From: Alicyclobacillus shizuokensis NBRC 103103
Lineage (GTDB): Bacteria; Bacillota; Bacilli; Alicyclobacillales; Alicyclobacillaceae
Length of the DNA stretch: 64,000 nucleotides
Reading direction: 5' to 3'
NCBI RefSeq assembly: GCF_001552255.1
Contig: NZ_BCQV01000011.1
Span: 1 to 64,000, forward strand
Both the position numbers and the translations under genes were made by a program. Shown one piece after another: positions 40,619 to 57,794 of the stretch (the stretch's first letter is position 1; the number at the start of each line of letters is the position of its first letter). The notes under the pieces are model-generated. The model saw only the letters and a program-made list of their open reading frames with translations, did no database searches and had not been told where the DNA came from.

Positions 40619-41671
40619 TCAGGCGCCTGTGCGCTGGCGGCGGACCGCCTCCCACAGCCCGTTCAGGTAGGCCGCCCCCAACGCCCGGTCGTATAACCCG
40701 TAGCCGGGGCGGCCCTGTTCCCCCCATATCATGCGCCCGTGGTCCGGCCGAATCGGCCCATCATAGTGGAATTCGGCCAAGGCCGTCATCACCTCGTACA
40801 TATCGACCGATCCGTCCGCGCTTTGGTGCCCGCTCTCGTGAAACCGTCTGGGCCCGGTCACGCGCACGTTGCGCGCGTGCACGAAGTGAACGCGCCCCCG
40901 CGCCAGAAACTCCCGCAGCAGCGACGGAACATCGTTATCCGGGCTGGCGCCGAGAGACCCGGTGCAGACGCACAACCCGTTGCTGGCGACATCGCACAGG
41001 TCGAGCACCCGACGCAGGCCCGGGCCGTCGCAGAGGATGCGGGGCAGGCCGAACACAGACCAGGGTGGATCATCCGGGTGCACCGCGAGCTTCACCCCCG
41101 CCTCCTGGGCCGCCGGGGCCACCGCCCGGATGAAGTACGCCAGGTTGCTCCACAGCGCCTCGGCGTCGACCTCCCGGTACGCCCGCATCAGGCCCTCCAA
41201 CTCGTCGTCGCCGTAGCTGGCGTCCCATCCCGGCAGCTTCCACTCCCCACCGAGCGGGTTCATGCGCGCGACCTCTTCCTCGTCGTACGCCAACGTCAAC
41301 GATCCGTCCGGCAATCGATAGTCCAGGCGGGACCGGGTCCAATCGAAGACCGGCATAAAGTTGTAGCAGACCGTCCGGATGCCGGCTTGTCCTAGCCGGC
41401 GCACAGTCTCAATGAAGTTCTCGATGTAACGGTCGCGGGTCGGCCGCCCCAGCTTGATGTCCTCGTGCACAGGCACGCTCTCAATCACCGTCAACTCCAG
41501 CCCCTGCTCGGCGATCTCCCGTTTCAGGGCGGTGATGTGTTCCACCGGCCACACCTCACCGACCGGGACCGTGTAGAGTGCGCTGACGACGCCCACCATG
41601 CCGGGGATTTGGCGGATCTGCCAGAGGCGGACCGGATCTTCCTGACCGTACCACCGGAACGACATTTTCAT
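40619..41671 (-). CDS. uxuA: mannonate dehydratase
   Basis: Dehydrates D-mannonate to 2-keto-3-deoxygluconate. The 350-aa protein has the UxuA features SFRWYGQEDPVRLWQIRQIPG at the N-terminus, VIESVPVHEDIKLG, VCYNFMPVFDWTRS, KLAVHPDDPPW and VHARNVRV with HESGHQSADGS, which supply metal and substrate ligands. Its start overlaps the eda stop by four bases. It is the last gene of the uronate operon. Confidence 0.95.
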   Translation of the reverse strand: MKMSFRWYGQEDPVRLWQIRQIPGMVGVVSALYTVPVGEVWPVEHITALKREIAEQGLELTVIESVPVHEDIKLGRPTRDRYIENFIETVRRLGQAGIRTVCYNFMPVFDWTRSRLDYRLPDGSLTLAYDEEEVARMNPLGGEWKLPGWDASYGDDELEGLMRAYREVDAEALWSNLAYFIRAVAPAAQEAGVKLAVHPDDPPWSVFGLPRILCDGPGLRRVLDLCDVASNGLCVCTGSLGASPDNDVPSLLREFLARGRVHFVHARNVRVTGPRRFHESGHQSADGSVDMYEVMTALAEFHYDGPIRPDHGRMIWGEQGRPGYGLYDRALGAAYLNGLWEAVRRQRTGA

Positions 41672-42324
41672 CCCCGGCGCGCCTCCTCCACCTGCCTGGC
41701 GACTGTGGCCGCCAGTTCCCGCACGCGGGCAAAGTCCCCTGCGGCCACCGCGTCTTGGGGGGTCAGAGCGCTGCCGACGCCCACCGCCAGGGCGCCGGCA
41801 GCCAGGTAAGCCCCCACCTCATCCGGCCGGATACCGCCGGTGGGCACAAACAGCGTACCGCGAAACGGTCCCAGCAGGTCTTTCAGGTACCCTGGACCGA
41901 GCGGTCCTGCAGGGAACAGTTTCAGCACCTCCGCCCCCGTCCGCAGCGCGCTGGCCGCCTCGCTGGCCGTAAGGATGCCCGGTATGTACAAGTGACCCTG
42001 TTCCCGCGCCGTCTGCACCAACGTCGGATCAAAATGCGGGCCGACGAGAAAGTCCGCCCCGGCCGCCATCGCCTCTTGCACCTGCCCTGTCGTCATCACC
42101 GTTCCCGCACCGAGCAGCAGTTCCCCGCCCAGGCGATCCCGGAGGGCGGCTATCACCTCGGCCGCAGCCGGTGTATCCATCGTCAATTCGACCGCCTTCA
42201 CGCCCCCTTCCAACAACGCCTCCACAACCCCGTGCACGGCGTCGCTGGGCAGTCGGCGCAGCACAGCGATGACGCCCACCTGGCCGATCCGCTCAACCAA
42301 TCGCCCCGTCGTTTGGCTCCTCAT
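41668..42324 (-). CDS. eda: KDPG/KHG aldolase
   Basis: Class I aldolase of 218 aa cleaving 2-keto-3-deoxy-6-phosphogluconate to pyruvate and glyceraldehyde 3-phosphate. The catalytic Glu lies in VKAVELTMDTP, the Schiff-base Lys in LKLFPAGPLG, and the phosphate site is in VPTGGIRPDEV. The second of two ATGs (42324) is chosen: it overlaps the kdgK stop as ATGA and AAAGGGG is seven bases upstream. The other ATG is at 42330. Confidence 0.93.
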   Translation of the reverse strand: MRSQTTGRLVERIGQVGVIAVLRRLPSDAVHGVVEALLEGGVKAVELTMDTPAAAEVIAALRDRLGGELLLGAGTVMTTGQVQEAMAAGADFLVGPHFDPTLVQTAREQGHLYIPGILTASEAASALRTGAEVLKLFPAGPLGPGYLKDLLGPFRGTLFVPTGGIRPDEVGAYLAAGALAVGVGSALTPQDAVAAGDFARVRELAATVARQVEEARRG

Positions 42325-43292
42325 CTCCATACCCCTTTCGTTCCTTCCAGCTCCGCCAACGCCTCGGCGCGGGATGGATAGCCGGTATGGTCGCCGACCC
42401 GGGTGACCGCGTAGGCGCCGACCACCGCTCCCAGGCGCGCCGCCTGCTCGGTGGGCCAGCCTTCCATCAGGCCGGCGATAAAGCCGGCGTTAAAGCCATC
42501 CCCGGCCCCGACCGTGTCGACCACACGCGGCACCGGACAGGGGGGGACCTGGGTCAGGCACCCGCCTTCGCTCACCTGGGCACCCTGGGCCCCACATTTG
42601 ACCACAACCCCTCGGCCCAAAAATCCAAGCCCACGTGCCGCCTCCTCCACGGCGTCCGCCGTGGCGGTGCCAAACAGGGCCATCGCCTCCTCATCGCCGA
42701 GGAAAAACCAGTCCAACCAGGGCAGGACGTGATCCACCAAGCTTCTCCAGGACGGCTCGTCGGCCAGCTTGTAGCGGATGTTGACGTCAAACGACACGGT
42801 GCACCCTCCAGTCCTGGCCGCGCCCAGCAGGTCATCGGCCGCCGCCTTGGCCTGGGCGCCGAGCATCCAAGTGATGCCGGTCGCGTGCACCCAGCGGTAA
42901 CGCCCGGCCGCCACTTCCCGGGCGAGCGGGCGCACGTCCCAGAGTCCCTGCGCCATCGGAGACGTGGAACGGTAATAGTACACCGAGGTCGCCTGTTGAA
43001 GCCCGCTCCACTGTTTGAACAACAAAGCGGTCGGAGCCTCCGACTCCTGCACCCAGCGCACGTCGATGCCTTCCGCCCGGGCCTGGCGAATCAGCAGTTG
43101 GCCGAACGGGTCTCGGCCGACGGCCGCGGCGAACGCCGCTTCGACGCCCAACCGGACCAAACCCACAGCCGTGTTCAGCTCCGCCCCGGCCGCGTACGGA
43201 GTGAGCGGCGACCCTTCGCTGTAGGCGCCGGGTTGACTGGGGACCATCGCCACCAGCGGTTCTCCAAATGTCAATACGCGCCGCGCTGTCAC
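42321..43292 (-). CDS. kdgK: 2-keto-3-deoxygluconate kinase
   Basis: PfkB/ribokinase-family kinase of 323 aa. N-terminal GEPLVAMVPSQPG and the substrate-binding GAELNTAVGLVRLG are followed by the C-terminal signature DTVGAGDGFNAGFIAGL with the catalytic Asp and anion hole. It phosphorylates 2-keto-3-deoxygluconate to the substrate of the adjacent aldolase. The GTG start overlaps the uxaB stop (GTGA) and follows AAGGGAGG. Confidence 0.92.
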   Translation of the reverse strand: MTARRVLTFGEPLVAMVPSQPGAYSEGSPLTPYAAGAELNTAVGLVRLGVEAAFAAAVGRDPFGQLLIRQARAEGIDVRWVQESEAPTALLFKQWSGLQQATSVYYYRSTSPMAQGLWDVRPLAREVAAGRYRWVHATGITWMLGAQAKAAADDLLGAARTGGCTVSFDVNIRYKLADEPSWRSLVDHVLPWLDWFFLGDEEAMALFGTATADAVEEAARGLGFLGRGVVVKCGAQGAQVSEGGCLTQVPPCPVPRVVDTVGAGDGFNAGFIAGLMEGWPTEQAARLGAVVGAYAVTRVGDHTGYPSRAEALAELEGTKGVWR

Positions 43293-44818
43293 CGTGTCTG
43301 AAACCTCCCTTGATCATATCCAGCCGCGAACACCTGTACCGCGCGGCGCACCGCCGTCTCCGCCCCCTCCGATTGAATCGCTCGGATGTTTTCGGCGACG
43401 GCAGGGGCCAAGCCCGACAGATTCCGCAGGTTCACTCCCCACAGCTCCTCCCGCGCCAAGAGCGCCTCAACGACAGCCAGGAGCCCCACTTCCGGTTCCT
43501 TCTCCCAGGCGTCGAGCAAAACCTGCACCTGCCGCTCATCGTCCCGAATCGGCCAACCTTCGACCCGAGCCCGCGGGTAATACATCAACAGCGCGGCCAA
43601 AGCGCAGACCAAGCGCGGAGGCAGCGCGCCGTAACGGCTGACATATGCGGTCAGCGTCGGCACCAGGCGCACCCGCGTCTTGGCGATGGTATTGAGGGTG
43701 ATGCTCAACAGCTCGTGCTTCAGATACGGGTTTTGAAAGCGCTCGAACACCTGGGCGGCAAACGACTGCAAGACGGACGACGGGAGTGATTCCCCATCGA
43801 GAGCCGGGATGATTTCCGCTTCGGCCAGCCCTTTGACGAACTGCGAGAAATCCGCGTCGGCCATCACCTCACCCACCGTCTGTCGGCCGGCCAGCAGCGC
43901 CAGAGCCGACATGGCTGTATGCAGTCCGTTGAGGATGCGCACCTTCTGCAGCCGGAACGGGCTTACATCGTCCACCATATGGACGTTGAAACCCAGACTG
44001 GCGAACGGCCAGCGGGAGGGCAGCCGCTCGTCGCCGCTGATGGCCCACAGGTGATAGGGCTCGCCAACGGTCAACAGCTCATCCCGATAACCCATCCGGG
44101 CAAATAAGCCCTCCGCCTCCGTCGCGTTCGGATAACCCGGTAGGATGCGATCCACCAGCGTGTTGCAGAAGCGATTGGCCCGCTCCACCCAATCCGAAAA
44201 CGCCTGCGGCAGCCCCCACTCCCGGGCGTGTCGCAGCACCAAACGGCGCAGCTCATCCCCATTGTCGTCAATCAGCTCACAGGGGATGAGCGTCATCCCA
44301 GCCTGCTCGTCGCCGGCAAAGTGTTGATAGCGGTGATAGAGGTACGCCGTCACCTTGGCGGGGAACGACTCGGGCGGCCGCCCCGGATGGTGCGCCTCGC
44401 TTTCGTATACCAGCCCGCGCTCGGTGGTGTTCGAGATCAGGATATCGATTTCTGGCGCTTCGGCCAAGCGTAAGATTTGCCGCCAATCGGTGTACGGATT
44501 GAGGGCGCGGCTGACTGACGTGACGACGCGCGCCTCATCCACCCGCCGACCGTTCTCCAGCCCGCGCAGCCAGACCGTGTACAGCCCGTCCTGAGCATTG
44601 AGCCGGCGCACATTGTCGGCCCCGCTGCGGCGCGGCGCCACCACGACAATGCGGCCGCCAAAGTGTCCGCGCTCGTTCAGCTCGTCCACCAACCAGTCGA
44701 CAAACCCGCGCAGGAAGTTGCCTTCGCCAAACTGGATGATGCGCTCCGGCCAACTCTTCACCCGTTCATACCGATCCGGCTGGTGTTGCTTCAACCACTG
44801 CATCGACAAACGCTCCAC
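43289..44818 (-). CDS. uxaB: tagaturonate reductase (altronate oxidoreductase)
   Basis: Long-chain polyol dehydrogenase of 509 aa in the mannitol dehydrogenase family. IIQFGEGNFLRGFVDWLVD at the N-terminus is the nucleotide-binding region. KVRILNGLHTAMSALALLAG near residue 298 contains the catalytic Lys, Asn and His. It reduces D-tagaturonate to D-altronate with NADH. The family also includes fructuronate reductase UxuB, but the N-terminal form fits UxaB better. GTG start with AAAGGAGG upstream. Confidence 0.9.
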   Translation of the reverse strand: MERLSMQWLKQHQPDRYERVKSWPERIIQFGEGNFLRGFVDWLVDELNERGHFGGRIVVVAPRRSGADNVRRLNAQDGLYTVWLRGLENGRRVDEARVVTSVSRALNPYTDWRQILRLAEAPEIDILISNTTERGLVYESEAHHPGRPPESFPAKVTAYLYHRYQHFAGDEQAGMTLIPCELIDDNGDELRRLVLRHAREWGLPQAFSDWVERANRFCNTLVDRILPGYPNATEAEGLFARMGYRDELLTVGEPYHLWAISGDERLPSRWPFASLGFNVHMVDDVSPFRLQKVRILNGLHTAMSALALLAGRQTVGEVMADADFSQFVKGLAEAEIIPALDGESLPSSVLQSFAAQVFERFQNPYLKHELLSITLNTIAKTRVRLVPTLTAYVSRYGALPPRLVCALAALLMYYPRARVEGWPIRDDERQVQVLLDAWEKEPEVGLLAVVEALLAREELWGVNLRNLSGLAPAVAENIRAIQSEGAETAVRRAVQVFAAGYDQGRFQTR

Positions 44819-44883
44819 CGAGCGACCTCCTTTCCATGTCGCGACGGCACTTTGCTCTGACGGGTAACACGTTGTGCCGTCCG

Positions 44884-45687
44884 TCAGGCATTGTGGACCC
44901 AGGCGTGGTCCGGATCGTCATGCGGAATCATGACGCGGTCGATGTCGCCGGCCATGACCCACAGGTAATACAGCTCGTAACCGGCTGCCGCGCACACCGG
45001 GTGGTACCCACGCGGTATCAAGAACACGTCTCCGTGCTCCACCCGGTGCACTTCGTCCAAGGAGCGGTCCTTCGTGTAAATCGCCTGCAGTCCGAAGCCC
45101 TGCCGCGGTTTCAGGCGGTAGTAGTACACCTCTTCCATACACGCCTCGACGCCGGGTTGGTAATCGTCGTGCTTGTGCGGTGGATAGCTCGACCAGTTGC
45201 CCGGCAGGTTGAAGGTTTCGCCGACGATGATGCGTTGGACCTTGCCCTCCGCCTCCTTGACCACCACGTCATGCACGTAGCGGCTGTAGTTATCCCGGCC
45301 GACCAGGCGCGGTTTGACCTCCTCCGGCCGAACCACAAACGGTGTATGCTCCTCGCTGGCGGGAGCCTGGCAGACCGCGACCTCAAGTGGCCCGGGCCCA
45401 GTGTTGGAAACGGTGAAGGATGCGCGCACGGGCACGTAGACCGCGGTTGCCCGCTCCGCGAACACGTCACTGCGCTGGAGGCTGCGGTAGGTTGCACCTC
45501 CCACCTCGACCTCGCACTGGCCGGACAAGAGCAGCAACACCGTCTCCACATCGGCAAACTGGCCTTGATGCCGCTCGCCCGGGCCCAGACGCAGGACGCC
45601 GAAGCGCAGGAGGCGCAGTCCGCCTGGGTTCGTGCTCCCGACCAACTCCCGGTACCCGGTGAACTCCTGAGACTTGACCAACAGCAT
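44884..45687 (-). CDS. iolB: IolB/KduI-family cupin isomerase
   Basis: Bicupin of 267 aa resembling 5-deoxyglucuronate isomerase IolB; the hallmark NWSSYPPHKHD with metal-binding His residues and the later MEEVYYYR Glu are present. The start MLLVKSQEFTGYRE follows GGAGGG; a longer frame to 45759 is not conserved. No other inositol gene is present. In this operon it may isomerise a uronate instead, standing in for the absent uxaC; that is inference. It lies between uxaA and uxaB. An 8-bp inverted repeat (44843-44850/44874-44881) sits in the gap before uxaB. Confidence 0.82.
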   Translation of the reverse strand: MLLVKSQEFTGYRELVGSTNPGGLRLLRFGVLRLGPGERHQGQFADVETVLLLLSGQCEVEVGGATYRSLQRSDVFAERATAVYVPVRASFTVSNTGPGPLEVAVCQAPASEEHTPFVVRPEEVKPRLVGRDNYSRYVHDVVVKEAEGKVQRIIVGETFNLPGNWSSYPPHKHDDYQPGVEACMEEVYYYRLKPRQGFGLQAIYTKDRSLDEVHRVEHGDVFLIPRGYHPVCAAAGYELYYLWVMAGDIDRVMIPHDDPDHAWVHNA

Positions 45688-45810
45688 GTTGCCATCCCTC
45701 CATTTCTGCTGCGGCCGCGCCGTGACCCGCGCGGCCTGAACGTGCCCCGTTCTCGCCACCTGGGCGTAGCGGTGGACTTTTGGCCTCGGCTCCGCTTGCA
45801 GCCTTGATGG

Positions 45811-47334
45811 CTACAGCGTCACCCCGTCTTTGAAAATCGCGATTTCACGGTACCCGAACCGCTCATTCTGGGTCTGCGACAAGCCCGAGGCCACATCGAC
45901 GACCTGCCGATACAAGGCGGCCGCCAGCTCAATCATCGACGCCCCGCTGACGAGGCGACCGGCATCAAAGTCCATCCAGTGACGCTTGCGCGCGTACAGG
46001 TCGCTGTTGGTGGCAATTTTGAGTGTGGGCACAGGGCCGCCGAACGGGGTGCCGCGCCCGGTGGTGAACAGCACCAACTGCGCTCCGGCCAGGGCCAAGG
46101 CGGTGACGGAAACCAAGTCATTCCCCGGCGCCTGCACCAGCTGCACCCCCCCACCGTGGGCCGGTTCCCCGTACGCGTGCACGGCGGTCACGGGGCTGTG
46201 CCCGCCCTTTTGCACACAGCCCAGCGATTTTTCCTCCAGCGTCGTGATGCCGCCGTCCTTGTTGCCGGGAGAAGGGTTTTCGTAAATAACCTGGTTGTGC
46301 CGAATGTAGTAGTCCTTGAAATCGTTGATGAGTTGCACGATGTCAGCAAACGTCCGTTCGTCCTGCGCGCGGTTCATGAGCATCGTCTCCGCGCCGAACA
46401 TCTCCGGAACCTCGGTCAACAGCGCCGCAGCCCCGCGATTTGTAAACAGATCAGCCACCTTGCCCACGAGCGGATTGGCCGTGATGCCCGAAAATCCGTC
46501 GGATCCCCCGCACTTGAGCCCAATGCGCAACTTGGCCACCGGAACCCAGGTGCGGCGAAACTGGCGGGCGTAGCCGGCCAGCTCGCGCAGGTGCGCAAGG
46601 CCCGCCTCGAACTCATCCTGCACGCTCTGCAGCGCCATGTAATGGACCTTGGCTGTCGGGACATCGCCAAGCTGGGCCTTCAACAGGTCTATCTGGTTAT
46701 TTTCACAACCCAATCCGACCACCAGCACCCCAGCGGCGTTGGGGTGGCGGACGAGCCCGGCAATCGCCTTTTGCGTATAACCGAGATCATCCCCCAGCTG
46801 CGAGCAGCCGTACGGGTGGGGGAAGGCATAGACGCCGTCAATCCCAGATCCGGACAACTCGGCATGCGCCGCCTGTGCCAGACGCTCCACCATTTTGTTG
46901 ACACAACCGACGGTGGGCAGCACCCAGATCTCGTTGCGAATGCCCACATCGCCGTTCTCGCGCACGTAGCCCTCAAACACGTCCGGCAAGGCCTCCAGAT
47001 TCTCTTCCATGCGGCCCTGGGAAAGGCTCGGCGTATACTGATAGGACAACTTGTCTCCCAATTTCGTTTGCACGTTGTGCGTATGCACCCAGGCACCGCG
47101 GCGAATCGGCTGTGTGGCCCGCCCTATGGGGTGGCCATACTTGATGATGTCCTGCCCGGCCGCCACATCGCTGAGCGCAATCTTGTGGCCGCGCGGGATA
47201 TCTTCAAGGGCCGTCAGTTGTCCTTCCGCCAGCTCCACCGCATCACCTTTCGCAACCGCTTCCAAGACCACGGCGACGTTATCCTCCGCGTGAATCCGCA
47301 GGGCCCGCCGCGCGGCCGCCTCCATCACCGGCAT
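45811..47334 (-). CDS. uxaA: altronate dehydratase
   Basis: Iron-dependent dehydratase of 507 aa converting D-altronate to 2-keto-3-deoxygluconate. The N-terminal SAF domain (about 15-100; HAEDNVAVVLEAV, GHKIALSDVAAGQDIIKYG) and the large C-terminal domain (GYVRENGDVGIRNEIWVLPTVGC, GLGCENNQID, CGGSDGFSGITANP) are both in one chain, as in UxaA. MPVMEAAARR at 47334 is chosen for GGGAGG seven bases upstream. It opens the second half of the uronate operon behind its own extended -10 promoter. Confidence 0.93.
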   Translation of the reverse strand: MPVMEAAARRALRIHAEDNVAVVLEAVAKGDAVELAEGQLTALEDIPRGHKIALSDVAAGQDIIKYGHPIGRATQPIRRGAWVHTHNVQTKLGDKLSYQYTPSLSQGRMEENLEALPDVFEGYVRENGDVGIRNEIWVLPTVGCVNKMVERLAQAAHAELSGSGIDGVYAFPHPYGCSQLGDDLGYTQKAIAGLVRHPNAAGVLVVGLGCENNQIDLLKAQLGDVPTAKVHYMALQSVQDEFEAGLAHLRELAGYARQFRRTWVPVAKLRIGLKCGGSDGFSGITANPLVGKVADLFTNRGAAALLTEVPEMFGAETMLMNRAQDERTFADIVQLINDFKDYYIRHNQVIYENPSPGNKDGGITTLEEKSLGCVQKGGHSPVTAVHAYGEPAHGGGVQLVQAPGNDLVSVTALALAGAQLVLFTTGRGTPFGGPVPTLKIATNSDLYARKRHWMDFDAGRLVSGASMIELAAALYRQVVDVASGLSQTQNERFGYREIAIFKDGVTL

Positions 47335-47438
47335 CCACTCGCCTCCCTGGCCCATGCGCACAGATGCCGCCTGCCAGGCTCTTGGGTGCGCGCCCAAAGC
47401 GCGGCAGCGGCTCTCTGTTGCTTTGTGGCATCATGTTG

Positions 47439-47455
47439 GATTATACCACATAATC
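47439..47455 (-). promoter_or_regulatory. extended -10 promoter with overlapping palindromic operator for uxaA
   Basis: On the minus strand TGGTATAAT (47440-47448) is a perfect extended -10. It sits inside a perfect palindrome GATTAT-N5-ATAATC (47439-47455). A regulator bound there would cover the -10, so this is a good candidate repressor site. A clear -35 is not visible. Confidence 0.6.
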
Positions 47456-47467
47456 TCTCAACCGGTT

Positions 47468-48541
47468 CTACGCATTTTTCACCAATATCCACGGCCTCGT
47501 CAACGTGACCTGGTCCCCCTGCACCTCTGTCTGTGGGTAGTGATGCGTGCCCGTCAACCATTCACGGCCGGATTCGCTGACCAGAAAGGTGTCTTCGACT
47601 TTCGCCCCGGCCACCGAGGGATTCCAGGCGACAGCCGCGAGGCGGGGCACGGGCAGCGATTGTCCGAGGTCGGCACGCACCTCGCGCGATTGGAACCCAA
47701 TCAGTCCGCCCTGGTGATGCTCCATCCAGGCGTCGGCAAATCCCTGCGCCGCGTACGCGGCCTGCGCCTCGCGCACGACGTCGGCCAGCGGCACGCCGGG
47801 ACCCGTCGCCGCCAGCATCCTGGCCTCCACGCGCAGCACAGCTTCATATCGGCGGGCCAGCTCTTCCGGCAGCCCGGCAAAGGCGACGGTCCGCGTCGTC
47901 GCGGCCACCAGGCCGCCGCCTCGGGCACACAGCGACACGATAGCGTACCGCCCCAGCCGCTCGGGTGTCGGCAGCGGATGGCGATACAGGCCTGCCCGGC
48001 GCTCGCCGGCGGCTAAGAGCACCACCGCGTCCAACCCCTGGGAAGCACAGAGAGCAGCCACGCGGGCCGCCAAATCAGCCTCCGTGTCCTCCGCGCGGGC
48101 CAAACGGCACGCCTCCTCCACCGCCCAGGAGGTCCGTCGTCCCAACTGACGATATACCTCCACCTGCTCCTGGTCCAACTGGATGCGCATACGCCGCATC
48201 GCTTCCGCCACCTCAGTGTCGGTCACGACCCGGCGCCCGTCACGCCACCTGCGCACAATCCCTTGCCGCGCCGCCTCGTCGTACCATGGGTAGACATGGA
48301 CCGAATCGGCGGACAGGCCTTCCTCCGCCGTGAGCCGGGCCTGCTCAATGTTGCTGACAGCGCTTTCTATCCGCTCCTGGCTGATGAACACCGCCGCCAA
48401 CCCCTGTTCGGTCGCCACATTGACGTGGAATCTTCCGCCAAACAGCCAGGCCAAATTGATCGCCCGCTGGATGATCAATCCGTCCCAACCCTGCTCCTCA
48501 AGCATCGACCGGACCCGCTCCACCCTGTCCGAATACGCCAT
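47468..48541 (-). CDS. M24 (creatinase/aminopeptidase P) fold protein lacking metal ligands
   Basis: Pita-bread-fold protein of 357 aa: an N-terminal creatinase domain (1-130) and a C-terminal M24 domain (140-350). The two metal-binding Asp residues are gone (SLCARGGGLVAATTRTVAF), and the first Glu of the usual EPG region is Asn (VAWNPSVAGAKVEDTFLV). His residues remain in MEHHQGGLIGF. Thus it is probably not a metallopeptidase. Metal-free relatives such as creatinase hydrolyse small C-N compounds. It sits three bases after the DeoR regulator and upstream of uxaA. Confidence 0.8.
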   Translation of the reverse strand: MAYSDRVERVRSMLEEQGWDGLIIQRAINLAWLFGGRFHVNVATEQGLAAVFISQERIESAVSNIEQARLTAEEGLSADSVHVYPWYDEAARQGIVRRWRDGRRVVTDTEVAEAMRRMRIQLDQEQVEVYRQLGRRTSWAVEEACRLARAEDTEADLAARVAALCASQGLDAVVLLAAGERRAGLYRHPLPTPERLGRYAIVSLCARGGGLVAATTRTVAFAGLPEELARRYEAVLRVEARMLAATGPGVPLADVVREAQAAYAAQGFADAWMEHHQGGLIGFQSREVRADLGQSLPVPRLAAVAWNPSVAGAKVEDTFLVSESGREWLTGTHHYPQTEVQGDQVTLTRPWILVKNA

Positions 48542-48544
48542 GCG

Positions 48545-49330
48545 TCAGCCCCCTCTCTCGGTCTCTGCCGTTTCCGCCAGAATCACCTGTGCTCCTTGCC
48601 GCCTAAACGGATCCACGGCCTCGTCCGGGACCGACGCGTTCATCACGATGCCGTCCACTTCGTCCACGCGCGCGTACGACACCAAGGCCGCTCGCCCCAA
48701 CTTGCTCGCATCCACCACGCAGTAGACCGCATCCCCGGCCTGCATCATGGCCCGTTTGATCTGCCGCTCCGCGCTGGAAGCCGTGGTCAGGCCTTGGCTG
48801 ACGGACACCCCGCCCGCCCCGAGAAACACCACGTCCACGTGGTAACGCCCAATCATCTCCACGCATTCCGGACCGACGACGCAGGGAGTGCCGCGCTGAT
48901 GAGTGCCGCCCAGCATGACCAATTGCACATGGACCGACGTGGACAGCTCCGCGGCAATGATCAGGTCGTTGGTCACCACCGTCACCGGCCGCGCCGCCAG
49001 CCGCCGCGCAATTTCCAGCGTGGTCGTGCCGCTGTCCAGCATCACCGTGCTGCCGTCGCGGATGAAGTCGACCGCTCGCTCAGCCACCGCCGCTTTTTCT
49101 GGCACGTTCTGATGCATGCGCTGCTGCGCCGGCGGCACCACATGCACCGGCTCCGCCAGCATCGCACCGCCGTGGGTACGCCTCGCCAGTCCCTCCGACT
49201 CCAGCTTGCGCAGGTCGCGGCGCACCGTCTCTTCCGACACCCCAAACCGACTCTTGAGATCCGAAATGCGTACGGATCCTTCCCTTAGCAAAATCTCCTT
49301 CAGTTTCCGCTGGCGCATCTCCCCTAGCAC
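48545..49330 (-). CDS. DeoR-family transcriptional regulator
   Basis: Sugar-operon repressor of about 261 aa. The N-terminal HTH (RISDLKSRFGVSEETVRRDLRKLESEGLARRTHGGA) is followed by a DeoR ligand domain with MLDSGTTTLEIARRL, VVTNDLIIAAEL, MLGGTHQRGT, FLGAGGVS and VDASKLGRAALV. The GTG at 49330 gives the family start MLGEMRQRK; TTG at 49336 is an alternative. It is coupled to the M24 gene and is the likely regulator of the uronate operon, responding to a phosphorylated intermediate. Confidence 0.87.
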   Translation of the reverse strand: MLGEMRQRKLKEILLREGSVRISDLKSRFGVSEETVRRDLRKLESEGLARRTHGGAMLAEPVHVVPPAQQRMHQNVPEKAAVAERAVDFIRDGSTVMLDSGTTTLEIARRLAARPVTVVTNDLIIAAELSTSVHVQLVMLGGTHQRGTPCVVGPECVEMIGRYHVDVVFLGAGGVSVSQGLTTASSAERQIKRAMMQAGDAVYCVVDASKLGRAALVSYARVDEVDGIVMNASVPDEAVDPFRRQGAQVILAETAETERGG

Positions 49331-49424
49331 GGTCAATCTTCCTTTCCTGAACCCAGCAGCCTGCCCTTCAAGAAAACCTCACTATCCCGCAAAAGTCAAC
49401 ATGAATTATCGAATCCCCGCAGCC

Positions 49425-50969
49425 TCACGGGTGGTCCTTGGACACGTCGCCGTCAACTCCGGCGCCCTCGTCCCGCATCGTCTGCTGACGGTAAGCGTCC
49501 AAACGCGGCCAGACTGTCCGCATGCCGGCCGCAAACGCTTGATAGGCGGCGAACCCGGCCCTGTACACCTCCTGCTCCCGCGAATCCGGAACATACTCCT
49601 CCTGCACGGGGTTGACGCATCGCATCTCCTCTTCGGTCACCCAGCCCAGGGCCCGGGCGGCCAATAAAAAAGCGCCGTAGGCGGCGGCGTGCCGGATCCT
49701 CGGTTGGTGCACAGGCACCCCGTAGAAGGAGGCCTTCATGCGGTTCCAGGCCTGGTTCCCCGCCATCCCGCCGACAACGCGCACCGCCTGGACGGGCTCC
49801 ACATACTGACGCATCCGCTCCAACACGGCCCGCAGTTCATAGCCAATCGACTCCAATGCGGCCCGCACCAGGTGTTCGGGCTGGTGCCCCAGCGTCAAGC
49901 CGCCGATAACCCCGGTGGCGCCGGCGGTCACAGAACTCCCTTTGCGCCCCATGAACCACGGCAGCATCAGAACACCGGCAGACCCGGGCCGCACCGACTG
50001 CAGAACACACTCAAGATGCTGCACATCGGGCGTGGATGCCCCAAGCAAACCCGTCAGCCACTCCAGCACAGCCCCGGATGCGGAAATCCCTTGCTCCAGA
50101 ATCCACCTGCCGTCCAACACGTGCGGAGTGCAGCTCAGGCATTCCTCTTGGACAATGCGTTCCACTTCGCAGGACATGTTGCTGGTGGTTCCGGACGACT
50201 CCATGATTTCCCGCGGCCGCACTCCGGATCCCAGCACTTCACATGGCCTGTCCCCGCCGCCAATCAGGACGGGGATGCCGGGCGACAGGCCCAGTTGTTC
50301 AGCCGCTGCGCGTGACAGTCGGCCGACTGTCTCCTGCGGCGAGTGCACCGGTGGTAGTTGGTGCAAACCCACTTCGCAGGCCTCGAGCAGTTCCGGCCGC
50401 CACGCCAGCCGGTGGATATCGAACAGCAGGGTACGGGCAGCCAGGGTCCAGTCGGTGGCCACCTCTCCCGACAACCAATATAAGATGTAGTCTTTCGGCT
50501 GCATGTACCAGCGGGCTTTCGAGAACACATCCGGGCACCGGCGGCGCAACCAGAGGATTTTGCCGGCCGAATACGCGGCTCCTGGGGCGAGCCCAGTCCA
50601 CTCCCGCACTCGGCCTTGGAAGGCGTCCTGCAGGGCGTCGGCCTCGGCCGTTCCGCGTCCGTCCAGCCACAGCAGAGCGGGCGCGAGCGGACGCATGTCC
50701 TCTCCCACCGGCACCACCGTCTCTCGCTGGGACGTCAGGGCAATCATCCGCACAGCTGCGGGCGGAGCCTCGCCAAGAAGTCGGGAGACCGCCTGTTGCA
50801 GGGTGCGTATCCAATCGTCGGGTGACTGACATGCCTCCCCGTCGGGCGTGACCTGTCGGGGGTACGGGACGGTCACTTCGTACAGTGGGTCAAGACCTGC
50901 GCCAAACAGCATGGCCTTGCAGGCGGATGTGCCCAAATCTATGGTTAATACCGCTTCCTGCGCACGCAC
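49425..50969 (-). CDS. FGGY-family carbohydrate kinase
   Basis: Sugar kinase of 514 aa. The FGGY N-terminal domain has LTIDLGTSACKAMLFG and WLDGRGTAEAD. The C-terminal domain has GGGDRPCEVLGSG, MESSGTTSNM and VVGGMAGNQAWNRMKASFYGVPV, the ATP site. The subfamily is xylulokinase/gluconokinase-like, but the exact sugar cannot be named. The GTG at 50969 gives the family N-terminus, with GGGGGTG upstream. It begins the uronate gene cluster, 94 bp upstream of the DeoR gene. Confidence 0.85.
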   Translation of the reverse strand: MRAQEAVLTIDLGTSACKAMLFGAGLDPLYEVTVPYPRQVTPDGEACQSPDDWIRTLQQAVSRLLGEAPPAAVRMIALTSQRETVVPVGEDMRPLAPALLWLDGRGTAEADALQDAFQGRVREWTGLAPGAAYSAGKILWLRRRCPDVFSKARWYMQPKDYILYWLSGEVATDWTLAARTLLFDIHRLAWRPELLEACEVGLHQLPPVHSPQETVGRLSRAAAEQLGLSPGIPVLIGGGDRPCEVLGSGVRPREIMESSGTTSNMSCEVERIVQEECLSCTPHVLDGRWILEQGISASGAVLEWLTGLLGASTPDVQHLECVLQSVRPGSAGVLMLPWFMGRKGSSVTAGATGVIGGLTLGHQPEHLVRAALESIGYELRAVLERMRQYVEPVQAVRVVGGMAGNQAWNRMKASFYGVPVHQPRIRHAAAYGAFLLAARALGWVTEEEMRCVNPVQEEYVPDSREQEVYRAGFAAYQAFAAGMRTVWPRLDAYRQQTMRDEGAGVDGDVSKDHP

Positions 50970-51283
50970 GCGTCTGCACCCCCACAACGAAGTCTGGCTG
51001 GCACCGGGCAGGATGGTGCCATGCGCATGAAGCGCCGCGACCCATCGGCCAGTTCGCTTCCATTATACGAACAGGGCGCCGCCATGAGAAACACCGCCGT
51101 GGGGTGCTCCCCCAGCGGTCTCCGATCCGCCAGTTTCCAAGCTCGTCTTGGTTCCCGCTGATGCTCCTATCATCTGCCACCACCAAACTCGCATACTCGC
51201 ATAAGAGAAGGTGTTCGCCACGGTCGAGGGGGTGACATCAGCGGCCACCAAAAATGATGAAGCAATGTGGCCAGCGAATCTCC
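50970..51283. other. intergenic spacer upstream of the FGGY kinase
   Basis: The spacer separates the MFS gene stop from the kinase start, both on the minus strand. It contains the kinase promoter but no recognised gene. A GC-rich inverted repeat near 51096-51120 could be a weak terminator of the preceding operon. Confidence 0.35.
51062..51090 (-). promoter_or_regulatory. sigma-A-type promoter for FGGY kinase operon
   Basis: On the minus strand TTCTCA (51085-51090) and a perfect TATAAT (51062-51067) are separated by 17 bp. About 93 bases of leader precede the GTG start. Confidence 0.6.
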
Positions 51284-52627
51284 TTAATCTGGCAGTGGTC
51301 TTCCTTTCGTCTCCACACAGAAAATTGCGCACACAAATCCCAGTACGTAAATCAAGCCAATGATAGTCGCTGCCAGGCTGTATCCACCAAAGATGGTGAT
51401 CAAGTAGCCCGAGCATAACGGCCCCAGAAAAGCGACAAACCGGGCGGCATTGAAAACAAACGAAACACCCGTGGCCCGGATACTTGTGGGAAAAAACTCC
51501 GGCAACCATACGGGCATCCACGAGTACTGGCCAAGGGTGAAAACCCCGTTGATCGCGGTGAGAATCAGGAGCCAACTCAGGTTGTGCACCCATAGGAACA
51601 GCACAGGTGTCAAAATAAGTGAAAGGCCAAAGTACATCAGCGTCGTCTTCTTCCGGCCCCAGGCATCAGCCATGAAGCCAAGCATAACATACCCCAGGAT
51701 GGCGCCGACATTGTAGATCATGCCACTGAGGCTCGACCAATGCGTGGTGGACAGCCCATGCGTCGCAGCGACCGCTCCGATGTATGCCGGCACCCAGGAC
51801 GAGATGGCCCACCAACCAACCGTGGTCGTGAGCGACATCAGCAGGCCCAATAGGGCCCCCTTTCTTAAATTCTTGCTTGAGAAAAGCGCTTTCATCGTGA
51901 ACAAAGCGTAGGTCTTTTCTTCGTCGGAAACAGCCGCGCCGCTCTCCACCTTTCTGCGCACATGGTTGCGCAGGGCGTTAGCTTGCTCCCACCTGATGGA
52001 TTCGTCCACGTTCCGGCGCAGCCACAACAGCACGAGCGCCGGCAACACACCGATCAAATACATGATCCGCCATGCGTTTGGCCCCATATTGCCAACGAAG
52101 AACCAGATCAGGGAAGCCACGAAAAAACCAATCCCCAAACCTGACTGCATAATTCCTGCCGCTTTTGCCCGTGTTTTCGCCGGAAACACCTCGGCCACCA
52201 TGGAAGTTCCTGTGCCCCACTCCGATCCGATGCACAACCCAACCAAAAAGCGGAGGAAAATGAAAGATGGCCACGACCAAGCGATGGCACTGATGCCGGT
52301 CATTACGGCATAGGACAGAATGGACAACATCATGACGCGCTTGCGTCCGATGTAATCGGCGAGTATGCCCCCGACGATGCCCCCTAGGCCCCATCCCAAC
52401 AGCGTCAGGCCAATGGTGGTCCCGGCGTACAATGGAACCGAATTCGTCTGTACGGCAGGAAGCAGTTGCTTCAACGCGACTCCAATCGTCAAGATCAAGG
52501 CATACGTCTCATATCCGTCAAACATCCAGCCTAAATTGGACGCCATCAGCACATACCATTGCTTGGAGCTTATCGACCTGTACCACGGGACCGCATCGGT
52601 GGCCAGTGTGGCACTCATTTGACTCAT
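51284..52627 (-). CDS. MFS transporter (metabolite:H+ symporter type)
   Basis: Twelve-helix transporter of 447 aa. Family features are LMASNLGWMFDGYETYAL at helix 1, LLGWGLGGIVGGILADYIGRKRVM between helices 2 and 3, GSEWGTGTSMVAEVFPAKTRAKAAG, and RATGVSFVFNAARF in the second half. These resemble aromatic-acid and sialic-acid type symporters. The ATG at 52627 follows AGGAGGG. It is the last gene of the molybdenum hydroxylase operon, 155 bp after it, so it probably imports that operon's substrate. Confidence 0.86.
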   Translation of the reverse strand: MSQMSATLATDAVPWYRSISSKQWYVLMASNLGWMFDGYETYALILTIGVALKQLLPAVQTNSVPLYAGTTIGLTLLGWGLGGIVGGILADYIGRKRVMMLSILSYAVMTGISAIAWSWPSFIFLRFLVGLCIGSEWGTGTSMVAEVFPAKTRAKAAGIMQSGLGIGFFVASLIWFFVGNMGPNAWRIMYLIGVLPALVLLWLRRNVDESIRWEQANALRNHVRRKVESGAAVSDEEKTYALFTMKALFSSKNLRKGALLGLLMSLTTTVGWWAISSWVPAYIGAVAATHGLSTTHWSSLSGMIYNVGAILGYVMLGFMADAWGRKKTTLMYFGLSLILTPVLFLWVHNLSWLLILTAINGVFTLGQYSWMPVWLPEFFPTSIRATGVSFVFNAARFVAFLGPLCSGYLITIFGGYSLAATIIGLIYVLGFVCAIFCVETKGRPLPD

Positions 52628-52781
52628 GGCTGTACCCTCCTGATTCCATATTTTCTTGCCTAATACTCGAACATTCCGTCTCTTTCTGTTCTGAACGGTG
52701 TGTCGCAATGCCGCTTAGCTGCAACCGTCGCCTGTACGACTCGTCTACAAGCGGCGAGTCGTACAGGGAACACGTCTTGGC

Positions 52782-53306
52782 CTAGCGCTGCGCCATGATA
52801 GCAGTCGCTGGAGTATTTCCAGCCGCTGTCTGGGCGCGCAGCTTCTCCGCCGCCCGATGCACAGCGGCAATGATCTCCGGGTACGCCGCGCAGCGGCAGA
52901 GGTTTCCGGACATGTAGTGCTTGATCTCCTCATCCGTCGGGTCCGGATTCTCCTGCAGCAACTGCGTCGCCATCATGATCATGCCAGGGGTGCAGAACCC
53001 GCACTGAAACCCTTCGCACTCCACGAACGCCTCCTGCACGGGCGACAATTGATTGAGCGTCCCCAGTCCCTCGACCGTCTGGACGTCGCAGCCGTCCACC
53101 AACACCGCCAGATATAGACAGCCCGAAACGGCCCGGCCGTCCACATTCACGGTGCAGCACCCACACAATCCCTGGCCGCAGCTTTCGCGTACACTGTACA
53201 TCTGGAACCCGCGGCGCAGAGCCTCCACCAGGGTCTCGTACGGCTGCACCGCCAATTCCACCGGCCGTCCGTTCAACCGAAAGCGAATCGTCTGCAGTTC
53301 GGCCAT
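52782..53306 (-). CDS. molybdenum hydroxylase iron-sulfur subunit
   Basis: Small (2Fe-2S)2 subunit of 174 aa. The plant-type cluster is bound by CGQGLCGCCTVNVDGRAVSGC (residues 42-62); the second cluster by CGFCTPGM and CRC in GNLCRCAAYP. It passes electrons from the Mo centre to the FAD subunit. The ATG at 53306 is one base after the large-subunit stop, so translation is coupled. An in-frame ATG at 53315 is an alternative but overlaps the ribosome binding site. Confidence 0.93.
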   Translation of the reverse strand: MAELQTIRFRLNGRPVELAVQPYETLVEALRRGFQMYSVRESCGQGLCGCCTVNVDGRAVSGCLYLAVLVDGCDVQTVEGLGTLNQLSPVQEAFVECEGFQCGFCTPGMIMMATQLLQENPDPTDEEIKHYMSGNLCRCAAYPEIIAAVHRAAEKLRAQTAAGNTPATAIMAQR

Positions 53307-53307
53307 C

Positions 53308-55671
53308 TCACGCATCCCCCCATACCCTGCCTTGCTGTTCTCGAAGCGCCCGGAGCACCCGTTCCGGTGTGAGCGGGGTTTCATAGATGCGCACCCCGAC
53401 GGCGTCATACACCGCATTCGCCACGGCTGGCGACAGGCCTAGTGAACCAGTCTCGCCGATGCCCTTGGCGCCAAAGGGGCCATTGCGGTGCGGAACCTCC
53501 ACGATGCTGACCTCGTTCTGCTCCGGCAGGTCCCAAAAGCCTGGGATCTTGTAGTCGGCCATGCTGGCGTTGACGACCTGCCCCTCATCGAACACCATCT
53601 CTTCAAAGAGGGTGAAACCCATCTGCATAAAGGAGGCACCCGAAAGCTGACGCTTCACAATGCCGGGATTGATGGCCTTGCCGCAGTCCCCCACCGTCAC
53701 CAGCCGCACAATGCGCACCTTGCCGGTCTCTGTGTCAACTTCCACTTCGACCCCACTGCCGCCGACCATCCAGTACGGGGTGATGTGGTCCGACATTCCA
53801 GTGGTGGCATCCGGCTTTTTGTAGTAGGGGAAATAGGAGCCGACCCCGAGCACGTTGCCCGCTTGCATGCCAAACCGTCTCGCCAAAATGTCCCCGTAAG
53901 TGAAGAACGATCCGTCGGGCGCTGCCACCCCGCCGTCTTGCACAGCCAGGGCTTCAGGGGCAAACCCGGTCTGCTCAGCGCACAGGGCCACCATCTGTCT
54001 TTTCGCGTCCTCGGCCGCCAAACGAACCGCGTTGCCCATGTGGAACGTGGATCGCGATCCGAGAGTGGCCATGTCGTAGGGCGTCACTTCCGTATCCGGG
54101 TGAATCACCCGCACGGACTCGGCTTCAAGGCCTAGGACGTCCGCCGCTATCTGCGCCATCGCAGTGTCCGAGCCTTGCCCCATGTCCACCGTGCCGCAAT
54201 ACACTCCGCAGCTTCCGTCACTGTACAGATTGACAAACGCCACCGAGGTGGTGGGTGATACGGCCGCCTTGATGCCGATGGCGAGACCGCGGCCGCGGCG
54301 AATGGGTCCGGATCCGTGATCAAACGGTTCATCCCACCTCATCTTACGGGCGAGTTCCTCTAGCACCTCGACCGTCCCCACGTCCTCCATCACCGTACCA
54401 GTGGCGTGCGGGCGGCCGTTGCGCAGGATGTTTTTGCGCCGGAACTCCAACGGATCGATTCCGAGTTCGCGCGCGATGATGTCCGCTTGGCTCTCGTACG
54501 CCCACACCAGCTGCGGAATCCCGAAGCCGCGCAGGGCGCCGGCCGGAGGCAGGTTGGTGTAGACGGCGTAGGAGTCCAGGCTTACCGCTTCGATGTCATA
54601 CGGGCCTGCGGCCGTGAACCCGGACTTCTGCGTCACGCGGGGCCCAATGTCGGCATACGCCCCGCCGTTCCACCATGTCTTGCAGTCGCGGGCGACAATG
54701 CGCCCGTCGTTCGTGACCCCGGTGCGGATGGTCACCGTCGCCGCGTGGCGGGTGATAGTGTAGAACTGCTCCTCCATGGTCAGGCTGAGGCGCACGGGGC
54801 GCTGCGTGATGAGGGCCAGCGCCGCCACCAAGGCCTCCAGCTTGATGTACAGCTTGGCACCGAATCCACCGCCGAGATAAGCCGTACGGACGCGCACCTT
54901 GTTCTCCGGCCAGCCAAGCAGCCGCGCCACCTCGATGCGCACGAACGAAGGGCTCTGCGAAGCGGTATGGATAAGCAGGTTGCCGGTGTCCGTCAGTTGC
55001 GCGAGGGTCACTATCGGTTCCAGTGGCAGGTGGCTGACCTGCTGGCTGCGGAAAGTATGTTCAAACACGCGGTCCGCCTTCGCAAACGCTGCGTCTAAGT
55101 CCCCGTTGCGCAGGTGGTACTCCATCGACACGTTCGTCTTGGCCCGCGGTTGGAGCGTCTTTAGGTCAGCGAACGTCCCGGCCGGCCGAATCACGTCGTG
55201 AACGAAGGTCGTTTCGGATTTCGCGGACTCGACCTCGTGAAAGAGGGGCTCAAGCTCCTCATAGTCAATCTCCACCAAATCAGTCGCCCTATCTGCCACA
55301 TGCACGTCCGTCGCCAGCACCACCGCCACCGGCTCGCCGACATGGCGCACCTTGTCCAGGGCGAGGATGGGCTGGTCGTGAAATGCCGGTCCATAGTACG
55401 GATCGGGAATCACCTTGAGGATGTCCTCGCCGGTGATGACGTCGTACACGCCCGGCAACTCTTTGGCCTCCTGGGTGTCGATGCCGCGGATGCGCGCGTG
55501 GGCGATGGTGCTGCGGACCACCTTGGCATGCAGCATCCCGGGGACCTCCAGGTTGTGGATGTACTCCGCCCGGCCTGTCACCTTCGCTTGGCTCTCCAGC
55601 CGCTTGACCGCACGGCCCACCTGTCCTTGCTCCGTGCCCGCCGGGACGCCAGACTCCAGCACCTTACTCAT
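53308..55671 (-). CDS. molybdenum hydroxylase large (molybdopterin) subunit
   Basis: Catalytic subunit of 787 aa, xanthine dehydrogenase family. The small domain (about 20-140) starts at VKRLESQAKVTGRAEYIHNLE. The Mo-binding part contains GGGFGAKLYIKLEALVAAL, the AGALRGFGIPQ loop, VDMGQGSDTAMAQIAADVLG and the catalytic-Glu motif GIGETGSLG near the C-terminus. The CO dehydrogenase loop AYxCSFR is absent, so it hydroxylates an organic, probably aromatic or N-heterocyclic, substrate. The ATG at 55671 follows GGAGGGG; it overlaps the FAD-subunit gene. Confidence 0.93.
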   Translation of the reverse strand: MSKVLESGVPAGTEQGQVGRAVKRLESQAKVTGRAEYIHNLEVPGMLHAKVVRSTIAHARIRGIDTQEAKELPGVYDVITGEDILKVIPDPYYGPAFHDQPILALDKVRHVGEPVAVVLATDVHVADRATDLVEIDYEELEPLFHEVESAKSETTFVHDVIRPAGTFADLKTLQPRAKTNVSMEYHLRNGDLDAAFAKADRVFEHTFRSQQVSHLPLEPIVTLAQLTDTGNLLIHTASQSPSFVRIEVARLLGWPENKVRVRTAYLGGGFGAKLYIKLEALVAALALITQRPVRLSLTMEEQFYTITRHAATVTIRTGVTNDGRIVARDCKTWWNGGAYADIGPRVTQKSGFTAAGPYDIEAVSLDSYAVYTNLPPAGALRGFGIPQLVWAYESQADIIARELGIDPLEFRRKNILRNGRPHATGTVMEDVGTVEVLEELARKMRWDEPFDHGSGPIRRGRGLAIGIKAAVSPTTSVAFVNLYSDGSCGVYCGTVDMGQGSDTAMAQIAADVLGLEAESVRVIHPDTEVTPYDMATLGSRSTFHMGNAVRLAAEDAKRQMVALCAEQTGFAPEALAVQDGGVAAPDGSFFTYGDILARRFGMQAGNVLGVGSYFPYYKKPDATTGMSDHITPYWMVGGSGVEVEVDTETGKVRIVRLVTVGDCGKAINPGIVKRQLSGASFMQMGFTLFEEMVFDEGQVVNASMADYKIPGFWDLPEQNEVSIVEVPHRNGPFGAKGIGETGSLGLSPAVANAVYDAVGVRIYETPLTPERVLRALREQQGRVWGDA

Positions 55672-56554
55672 GCGCCACCCCTCCGTTCCTGGTGCGCGCC
55701 GCAAGTGCCTGTTCCAGGGCACGGCGCACACACACCTTGACGATTTCACGTTTGTACCCGGACGAACCCCGAATGTCCGCAAGTGGGTGAACGCCTGCCG
55801 CAGCCAGCTCGGCCGCTTCTTCGAACGCCTCCGCGGCAGGGCGCCGCCCACGCAGAAACGACTCCACCCCAGTCAGCCGCACCGGTCTCTCGGTGGCGGC
55901 GCTGACCGCCACCCGCGCCTCGGCGACAACCCCGCCTTGCATCCGGACAAACGCGGCGACACCGCACATCGGCCAGTCGTCGGCCGACAACGCCGTGTAT
56001 TTCAGATACGTTCCGCTCAACCCGTTCGGCAAAGCGGGCACCACCACGTCAGTGATCAGTTCACTCGGGTTAAGCACGGTGGTGTAATATCCGGTGAGAA
56101 ACTCAGGCAGCGCCACCTCACGTTCGCCTGCCTGGCCCGAAATTCGCACACGGGCGTCCAACGCCATCAAAATGGGCGGCAGATCCATGTGCGGGTCCCC
56201 GTGCGCCAGGTGCCCGCCAACGGTCGCCACGTTTCGCACACGCACATTGGACAGCGTTTGCATCGCCTGGGTGATGACCGGAGTAAACTCGGCCACCACG
56301 GGTGAGCGCTCGACGTCGCGCAAGGATGCCAGAGGCCCCAGGTGCAGGTCGCCTGCGTCGTCCAGCCGGATGCCGCTGAGCGACGGCTTCAGCCGCTGCA
56401 AGCTGACCAGTGTATGGGGAGTGAACACTTTTGACTTCATCATTAGCATCAGGGCCGTGCCGCCGGCCACCGGTCGCACGGACGGATCGTCCGTGTTCAA
56501 CAGCGACAAGGCCTCCTCCAGCGTCTCGGGCTGTAGCAGTTGAAACGGATTCAT
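55664..56554 (-). CDS. molybdenum hydroxylase FAD subunit
   Basis: Medium subunit of 296 aa with the FAD-binding PCMH fold. PVAGGTALMLMMK near residue 28, and TLSNVRVRNVATVGGHLAHGDPHMDLPPILMALD (about 100-133) carry the FAD contacts. The C-terminal CO_deh_flav_C domain is present. It accepts electrons from the Fe-S subunit. Its start overlaps the CoxG-like gene stop as ATGA. Confidence 0.92.
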   Translation of the reverse strand: MNPFQLLQPETLEEALSLLNTDDPSVRPVAGGTALMLMMKSKVFTPHTLVSLQRLKPSLSGIRLDDAGDLHLGPLASLRDVERSPVVAEFTPVITQAMQTLSNVRVRNVATVGGHLAHGDPHMDLPPILMALDARVRISGQAGEREVALPEFLTGYYTTVLNPSELITDVVVPALPNGLSGTYLKYTALSADDWPMCGVAAFVRMQGGVVAEARVAVSAATERPVRLTGVESFLRGRRPAAEAFEEAAELAAAGVHPLADIRGSSGYKREIVKVCVRRALEQALAARTRNGGVAHE

Positions 56555-57015
56555 GACCGTGCCTCCTGAGGGTGTGTGAGCGCGGTCCTCAGATTTTCGG
56601 CAAACAGGTTCCCCATTTCTTCACATTTAGCACGAAAGACGGACTGCCCGATGCCGCCCAGCTTGCCGGTGATGGTCTGATCCAGCACGTAGTCAATGCG
56701 TGTGGTCTGGTCATCCACGGCAGACACCATCAATTCGACATTGCCGGTGAGTTTGCCGGCCAGAGCCTTCGGCTTGCCGTCCACCACGGCCTTCAAGGAG
56801 GTGGGTTCGTTCACCTCAGTCAGTCGGACCATGACGTCAAATTTCATCTTCAAAAAAGCGACTTCCACCTCAAGAATGGCACTGTACCTGCCATCGCCCA
56901 GGTCGGTGAGTCGGCTGCAGCCAGGAATGCACTGAGCCAACCGCTCTGGGGTGCTGACAAAGGCGAACACCTCGTTCTGGGGGCAGGCTACGTCAAACTG
57001 ATTAGATACCTGCAT
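56551..57015 (-). CDS. CoxG-like SRPBCC protein
   Basis: SRPBCC-fold protein of 154 aa, CO dehydrogenase subunit G family (PVDVFAFVSTPERLAQCIPGC-like N-terminus; GKLTGNVELMVS). CoxG proteins accompany molybdenum hydroxylases and are thought to help membrane attachment or assembly; the role here is taken from that. It overlaps the cyclase gene by 28 bases. Confidence 0.86.
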   Translation of the reverse strand: MQVSNQFDVACPQNEVFAFVSTPERLAQCIPGCSRLTDLGDGRYSAILEVEVAFLKMKFDVMVRLTEVNEPTSLKAVVDGKPKALAGKLTGNVELMVSAVDDQTTRIDYVLDQTITGKLGGIGQSVFRAKCEEMGNLFAENLRTALTHPQEARS

Positions 57016-57728: not shown

Positions 57729-57794
57729 TCGTATCCCCCCTTCGACCAACTCAGGCTCCGAGTACAGTCGACACAAGCGACCCGACTCGGGGGC

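Follow-up and report, generated by a model that had tools for sequence, protein, structure and literature searches.

Which enzyme carries out the first step of a uronate operon that has no gene for the uronate isomerase UxaC? The question is raised by a stretch of 64,000 nucleotides of Alicyclobacillus shizuokensis NBRC 103103 (positions 1 to 64,000 of contig NZ_BCQV01000011.1, or C11; this whole stretch is called the window), which belongs to a genome of 3.63 Mb that is 99.68% complete. Nine closely packed genes of the minus strand, between positions 40619 and 50987, were recognized among the window open reading frames (ORFs) with Pfam and NCBIfam profiles. They encode, in this order, an FGGY kinase, a DeoR regulator, an M24-like protein, UxaA, an IolB-like cupin, UxaB, KdgK, Eda and UxuA. 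A tagaturonate reductase and an altronate dehydratase are thus found together with kdgK and eda, as in an operon of the UxaB/UxaA altronate pathway, and the profiles detected no UxaC, UxuB or inositol gene inside the cluster. An earlier note on this DNA had described the uxaB, uxaA, uxuA, kdgK and eda genes and the cupin placed between uxaA and uxaB away from any inositol gene, which the profiles bore out; it had passed over the FGGY kinase, the DeoR regulator and the M24-like protein of the same operon. We consider it likely that this operon serves to break down D-galacturonate along the isomerase pathway, with the IolB-like cupin in charge of the first step instead of UxaC. We infer the reaction and its substrate from the gene content, linkage, distribution, phylogeny and conserved metal site described below.

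The cupin gene is located at positions 44884–45687 (minus strand). Its ORF is open from a GTG at position 45759, and the likely start is the ATG at 45687, as homologues begin at this ATG and a GGAGG site precedes it. The product is then 267 amino acids long (residues are numbered here on the 291-amino-acid ORF counted from the GTG). It belongs to family PF04962, with 280.4 bits for a gathering threshold of 23.9 and profile positions 2–262 of 262 covered. The IolB equivalog model TIGR04378 gave 242.8 bits, above its cut-off of 205. The true IolB of the same genome, encoded in a full inositol cluster on contig C30 which includes IolD, reached 333 bits with this model, and because both scores pass, the cut-off fails to split the two groups. 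The 205-bit cut-off also admits the uronate-operon subfamily, at about 242–256 bits, a systematic misannotation. No match was obtained with the UxaC family PF02614 or with the KduI model NF002091, which gave 422 bits for the true KduI of a relative (G021). The window cupin is 94% identical to its Alicyclobacillus kakegawensis homologue, which places the strain near that species, 35% identical to the IolB encoded on C30, and 32–37% identical to IolB.

Residues H195, H197, E210 and H253 were invariant across the operon-type and IolB sequences and correspond to the cupin ligand pattern His-x-His...Glu...His; we take them to be the metal ligands from what we know of KduI. Two other positions differed. 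Position 226 is Ser, Ala, Leu or Val in the operon type and Arg in 13 of 13 IolB and four of four KduI sequences, and position 267, an Asn in IolB, is occupied by Trp in each of the 43 operon-type sequences. In a tree of 69 sequences, with supports from the Shimodaira–Hasegawa-like approximate likelihood ratio test (SH-aLRT), true IolB formed a clade of its own (97) and the operon type of the family Alicyclobacillaceae formed another (98), the window cupin lying outside the IolB clade. The AlphaFold model of the cupin had a mean predicted local distance difference test score of 79.6 and was weak around the catalytic loop (residues 193–203). The best Foldseek match of this model (rank 1, E 9.5e-23) was the IolB-like structure 2qjv, and KduI structures came next. 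Judged from these sequence comparisons, the subfamily is related to, but distinct from, the IolB of inositol breakdown. It is probably a non-orthologous replacement of UxaC misannotated as IolB.

In the route that we propose, the cupin would convert D-galacturonate to D-tagaturonate, and possibly also D-glucuronate to D-fructuronate. The isomerisation would be metal-dependent and of the aldose–ketose type, by analogy with KduI and IolB. UxaB (43289–44818, minus strand; 600 bits with NF002969, cut-off 359) would reduce tagaturonate to altronate, and UxaA would dehydrate altronate to 2-keto-3-deoxygluconate (KDG), from which the PfkB kinase and Eda would complete the route. The uxaA gene (45811–47397, minus strand, start uncertain) matched PF20629 (GD_AH_C, 320 bits), PF04295 and SAF. 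Its product matched the galactarate dehydratase 6u7l of the PDB with 248 bits, and also the altronate hydrolase 3k3s.

The distribution of the gene was first considered in 41 genomes of the family, in which the neighbourhoods of all the UxaC and operon-type carriers were inspected. The operon-type IolB-like protein was present in 24 genomes and UxaC in seven, with no overlap. The IolB-like gene adjoins uxaB in 23 of the 24 carriers, the exception being G028, where uxaB is on another contig, and all seven UxaC genomes possess uxaA-uxaB-uxaC operons without an IolB-like gene. Several Alicyclobacillus species have an operon of only a LacI gene, uxaA, the iolB-like gene, uxaB and a sugar porter of the major facilitator superfamily (MFS), and therefore no other gene there can make tagaturonate. 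Nine of the 24 carriers have neither UxaC nor a gene of the Bh0493 type, a second kind of uronate isomerase described below. IolD was found in 10 genomes of the family, exactly the 10 that have a true IolB. It is missing in 17 of the 24 operon-type carriers, and these 17 have therefore no inositol pathway to supply the substrate of IolB. Inositol breakdown by the IolB-like protein is very unlikely in species devoid of IolD. The epimerase UxaE was absent from 41 of 41 genomes and was rejected on this ground. In locus L129 (G018:C1:4627296-4628558), a Bh0493-type gene is interrupted by an in-frame TGA; the IolB-like uronate operon of the same genome is intact.

A similar distribution was observed in a sample of 398 genomes of the class Bacilli. 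The scores of a profile, A1, split the two groups: the operon type scored at least 294 bits (35 genomes) and true IolB at most 226 bits (82 genomes). UxaB was present in 34 of the 35 operon-type carriers, and the IolB-like gene lay within 12 kb of uxaB in 30 of the 35, compared to none of the 82 true-IolB genomes. The 91 UxaB-positive genomes comprised 28 with the IolB-like gene and no UxaC, 50 with UxaC and no IolB-like gene, six with both and seven with neither (Fisher p 2e-11). True IolB, taken as a control in the same sample, showed no avoidance of UxaC. In 15 of the 91 genomes the IolB-like gene was present with neither UxaC nor a Bh0493-type gene. The linkage to uxaA and uxaB reaches Brevibacillus thermoruber (L100) and a metagenome-assembled genome (MAG) of the Selenomonadales (L102). 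Outside the family, the IolB-like gene is also found with tripartite ATP-independent periplasmic (TRAP) transporters and LacI regulators. In locus L172, from a genome without UxaB, its neighbours are a GH2 glycosidase, kdgK and eda, which suggests that some members of the subfamily may handle glucuronate. A further subgroup is seen in L178:414-3991 (minus strand), where two tandem IolB-like genes lie beside a split transketolase and an ATP-binding cassette (ABC) transporter and neither uxaA nor uxaB occurs in the stretch.

Several observations weigh against an entry role of the cupin. The wider operon-type clade as a whole has an SH-aLRT support of only 86. UxaC is also present in six of the 35 carriers of the class sample, and locus L168 contains both genes. 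All three isomerases are missing from six genomes that do have UxaB, and absence alone therefore proves little. In the tree of UxaB, operons with UxaC are nested within those of the IolB-like type and only about two replacements of the IolB-like gene by UxaC are needed in the family; the Fisher p-values, such as the one above, are thus inflated since they ignore relatedness. A phylogeny-independent test on pairs was not significant, there being too few independent swaps. The association is clear-cut, yet few events underlie it. Lastly, UxaB could in principle be supplied with its substrate by two Bh0493-type isomerases that the A. shizuokensis genome itself encodes. In favour of the entry role, enzymes of other kinds that would produce tagaturonate take the same slot elsewhere. 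L182 has a Bh0493-type gene after uxaB, and the uxaAB operon of L181 has no isomerase and contains in its place a zinc alcohol dehydrogenase gene (L181:7197-8237, minus strand). This dehydrogenase could make tagaturonate from L-galactonate, the entry compound perhaps being L-galactonate or L-gulonate.

The search for uxaC and uxuB was extended to the whole genome. Classical UxaC (PF02614) was absent genome-wide, the control genomes giving matches. Bh0493-type genes were found on contigs C60 and C12 and a UxuB-like reductase on C60. C60 carries a second uronate operon, made of a GntR regulator, a sugar-porter MFS, a 455-amino-acid protein, a reductase of the mannitol dehydrogenase family and a second UxuA. 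A search of PDB sequences matched the 455-amino-acid protein, with 439 bits, to the Bh0493 entries 2qee and 2q08, titled 'uronate isomerase'. The protein has no Pfam or NCBIfam match, and surveys of uronate isomerases based on PF02614 miss the Bh0493 type for lack of such a match. The lack of a Pfam match was seen for the Bh0493-type genes at L046:7084-8451 and L180:9576-10817. The C60 reductase reached only 103 bits with the fructuronate reductase model (cut-off 603), and its UxuB label therefore rests on its position. The second Bh0493-type gene, on C12, is next to an ABC transporter and a Gfo/Idh oxidoreductase.

The argument of the earlier note from missing genes fails in this genome because the two Bh0493-type isomerases and the UxuB-like reductase with its second UxuA are present, and the absence of UxaC was given up as sole proof once the Bh0493-type genes had been found. 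What the note had observed is correct for the window, and also for classical UxaC in the genome, and partly wrong for the genome as a whole. Its central guess, that the IolB-like cupin takes the role of uronate isomerase, is probably right, on firmer grounds than it gave, and has strong support from the comparison of genomes in the family and the class. Nor did a uxaC gene under the same regulator come to light, which would have gone against this guess: there is no classical uxaC, and the Bh0493-type gene of C60 is beside a GntR gene, the operon of the window having a DeoR gene. The separate C60 operon probably handles glucuronate in this genome. Glucuronate would be processed by its transporter, Bh0493-type isomerase, UxuB-like reductase and UxuA, with the GntR regulator. 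Fructuronate and mannonate for the mannonate branch could come through the same operon, so that the external mannonate from which the branch had been supposed to start is not needed.

It is unlikely, though it is the best of the alternatives, that the IolB-like protein is an accessory uronate enzyme (a mutarotase or anomerase, or a UxaE-like epimerase of tagaturonate and fructuronate) and not the entry isomerase. The locus L168 shared by UxaC and the IolB-like gene and the six carriers that also have UxaC fit such a role, and since UxaE is missing throughout the family, the epimerase could be an unrelated one. However, an accessory role would leave the 15 UxaB-positive genomes without an entry isomerase and the minimal operon of UxaA and UxaB could not make tagaturonate; in addition, the related KduI and IolB are ketol-isomerases. 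A KduI-type activity is less probable still. Here the protein would act on 5-keto-4-deoxyuronate released by pectin lyases and reach KDG via KduD. The Pfam family and the metal site are common to both proteins, and KduI and KduD likewise feed kdgK and eda (PMC6353982). Against this, the cupin does not match NF002091, true KduI is a separate protein in relatives such as G021, which also has the operon type, and the linkage is to uxaA and uxaB, which the KduI route does not need.

There is little to recommend the idea that one of the two Bh0493-type enzymes serves the operon and that the IolB-like gene is a dispensable leftover in this strain. Both Bh0493-type genes are intact, and one of this type stands beside uxaB in L182, but the two copies of this genome are in other clusters (with GntR, UxuB-like and UxuA genes, and with ABC transporter and Gfo/Idh genes, respectively), and the IolB-like gene has stayed inside the operon, with 94% identity to its counterpart in the nearest relative. 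A true 5-deoxyglucuronate isomerase (IolB), as the NCBIfam label and the score above 205 bits would have it, is the least credible alternative and was rejected on the distribution of IolD, given also the separate IolB of the C30 inositol cluster, the distinct clade and the changes at otherwise invariant residues.

The last four genes of the operon, uxaB, the kdgK-like gene, eda and uxuA, have overlapping consecutive ends. The PfkB sugar kinase (42321–43292, minus strand) scored 156.6 bits with PF00294, and its best NCBIfam model, NF040938 for kinases of KDG or 2-keto-3-deoxygalactonate, gave 119 bits, below the cut-off of 400. Eda, the aldolase for 2-keto-3-deoxy-6-phosphogluconate and 2-keto-4-hydroxyglutarate (41668–42330, minus strand), scored 155.8 bits with Pfam and 194 with TIGR01182 (cut-off 156). 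The mannonate dehydratase UxuA, encoded at 40619–41671 (minus strand), scored 479.7 bits with PF03786 and 468 with NF003027. At the other end are the genes of the DeoR-family regulator (48545–49336, minus strand; PF00455 162 bits, PF08220 62 bits) and of the FGGY carbohydrate kinase (49425–50987, minus strand; PF00370 and PF02782), for which the XylB model TIGR01312 gave 276 bits, below its cut-off of 380. There is no obvious pathway step for this kinase. Several relatives have it too, for example in the UxaC-type cluster of L077.

The M24 protein (47468–48541, minus strand; PF00557, 48.7 bits) has the creatinase/prolidase fold. In an alignment to 1wn1, four of the five prolidase metal ligands were replaced (Ser203, Ala214, Gly279 and Asn307). 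Arg187, His188, His275, His276, Gln277, Arg286, Glu287, Asn307, Lys314 and Glu316 were near-invariant in an alignment of 23 M24 sequences. On the evidence of these residues, the protein belongs to a metal-free, creatinase-like clade. About 20 loci across the Bacilli have a gene of this fold next to uxaB or to the IolB-like gene. In L174:6216-9045 and L176:6371-8414, the M24-like and IolB-like genes are convergent neighbours beside ABC sugar-transporter genes and a Gfo/Idh oxidoreductase; L174 has no uxaA or uxaB in the stretch, and those of L176 are about 6 kb away. This convergent arrangement suggests that the two genes form a functional pair.

Upstream of the operon, an MFS transporter (51284–52708, minus strand; PF07690 and PF00083) is perhaps part of it, or else of the molybdenum-hydroxylase genes beyond. 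These, at 52782–58538 (minus strand), encode a molybdenum hydroxylase with 2Fe-2S, molybdenum cofactor-binding and flavin adenine dinucleotide subunits, a putative cyclase and an RraA-like aldolase. They probably constitute a separate catabolic operon, to which the transporter may belong.

A chemical precedent for the proposed reaction comes from the same Pfam family. Extracts with overexpressed Escherichia coli KduI lose galacturonate and glucuronate faster, and the authors proposed hexuronate isomerisation by KduI as a hypothesis and left indirect effects open (PMC3578941). In a search that fell short of most subscription journals and covered IolB as a uronate isomerase, Alicyclobacillus galacturonate genes and Bh0493, we found no publication giving a uronate isomerase role to IolB-like proteins. 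If our proposal is true, it supplies the enzyme that is lacking in at least nine genomes of the family which have this gene in a uronate cluster and no known isomerase, and it provides a third unrelated enzyme for the first catabolic step of galacturonate, a major plant sugar acid. It would also correct the systematic labelling of TIGR04378 matches as inositol enzymes and open to direct test an activity on hexuronates that has long been suspected for the KduI/IolB family, and a thermo-acidophile isomerase could be supplied for the conversion of pectin waste. It appears fairly likely that a third, structurally unrelated family of uronate isomerases, with the cupin fold and concealed by the IolB label, is the galacturonate entry enzyme in most Alicyclobacillaceae, in parts of other Bacilli and in a Selenomonadales MAG, in many lineages beside the creatinase-fold protein without a metal site, a possible partner.

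Among the known systems closest to the window cupin is IolB (TIGR04378; IolB-like 2qjv of Salmonella), with which it has in common the bicupin fold, the metal-site residues, its level of identity and a score above the cut-off. The two differ in their operons, that of the window cupin being for uronate and that of IolB for inositol, in their clades, at positions 226 and 267, and in the occurrence of the subfamily without IolD. KduI (NF002091), the 5-keto-4-deoxyuronate isomerase, is of the same Pfam family and fold and also acts on a uronate, whereas its sequence is very distant and the window cupin is partnered with uxaA and uxaB. UxaC (PF02614) occupies the same operon slot and would catalyse the same reaction, but with an amidohydrolase superfamily fold instead of a cupin. 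The Bh0493-type proteins (2q08, 2qee) would likewise share the reaction, and in L182 the slot, with an unrelated fold; in this genome the C60 gene of this type is linked to the UxuB-like and UxuA genes and not to uxaB.

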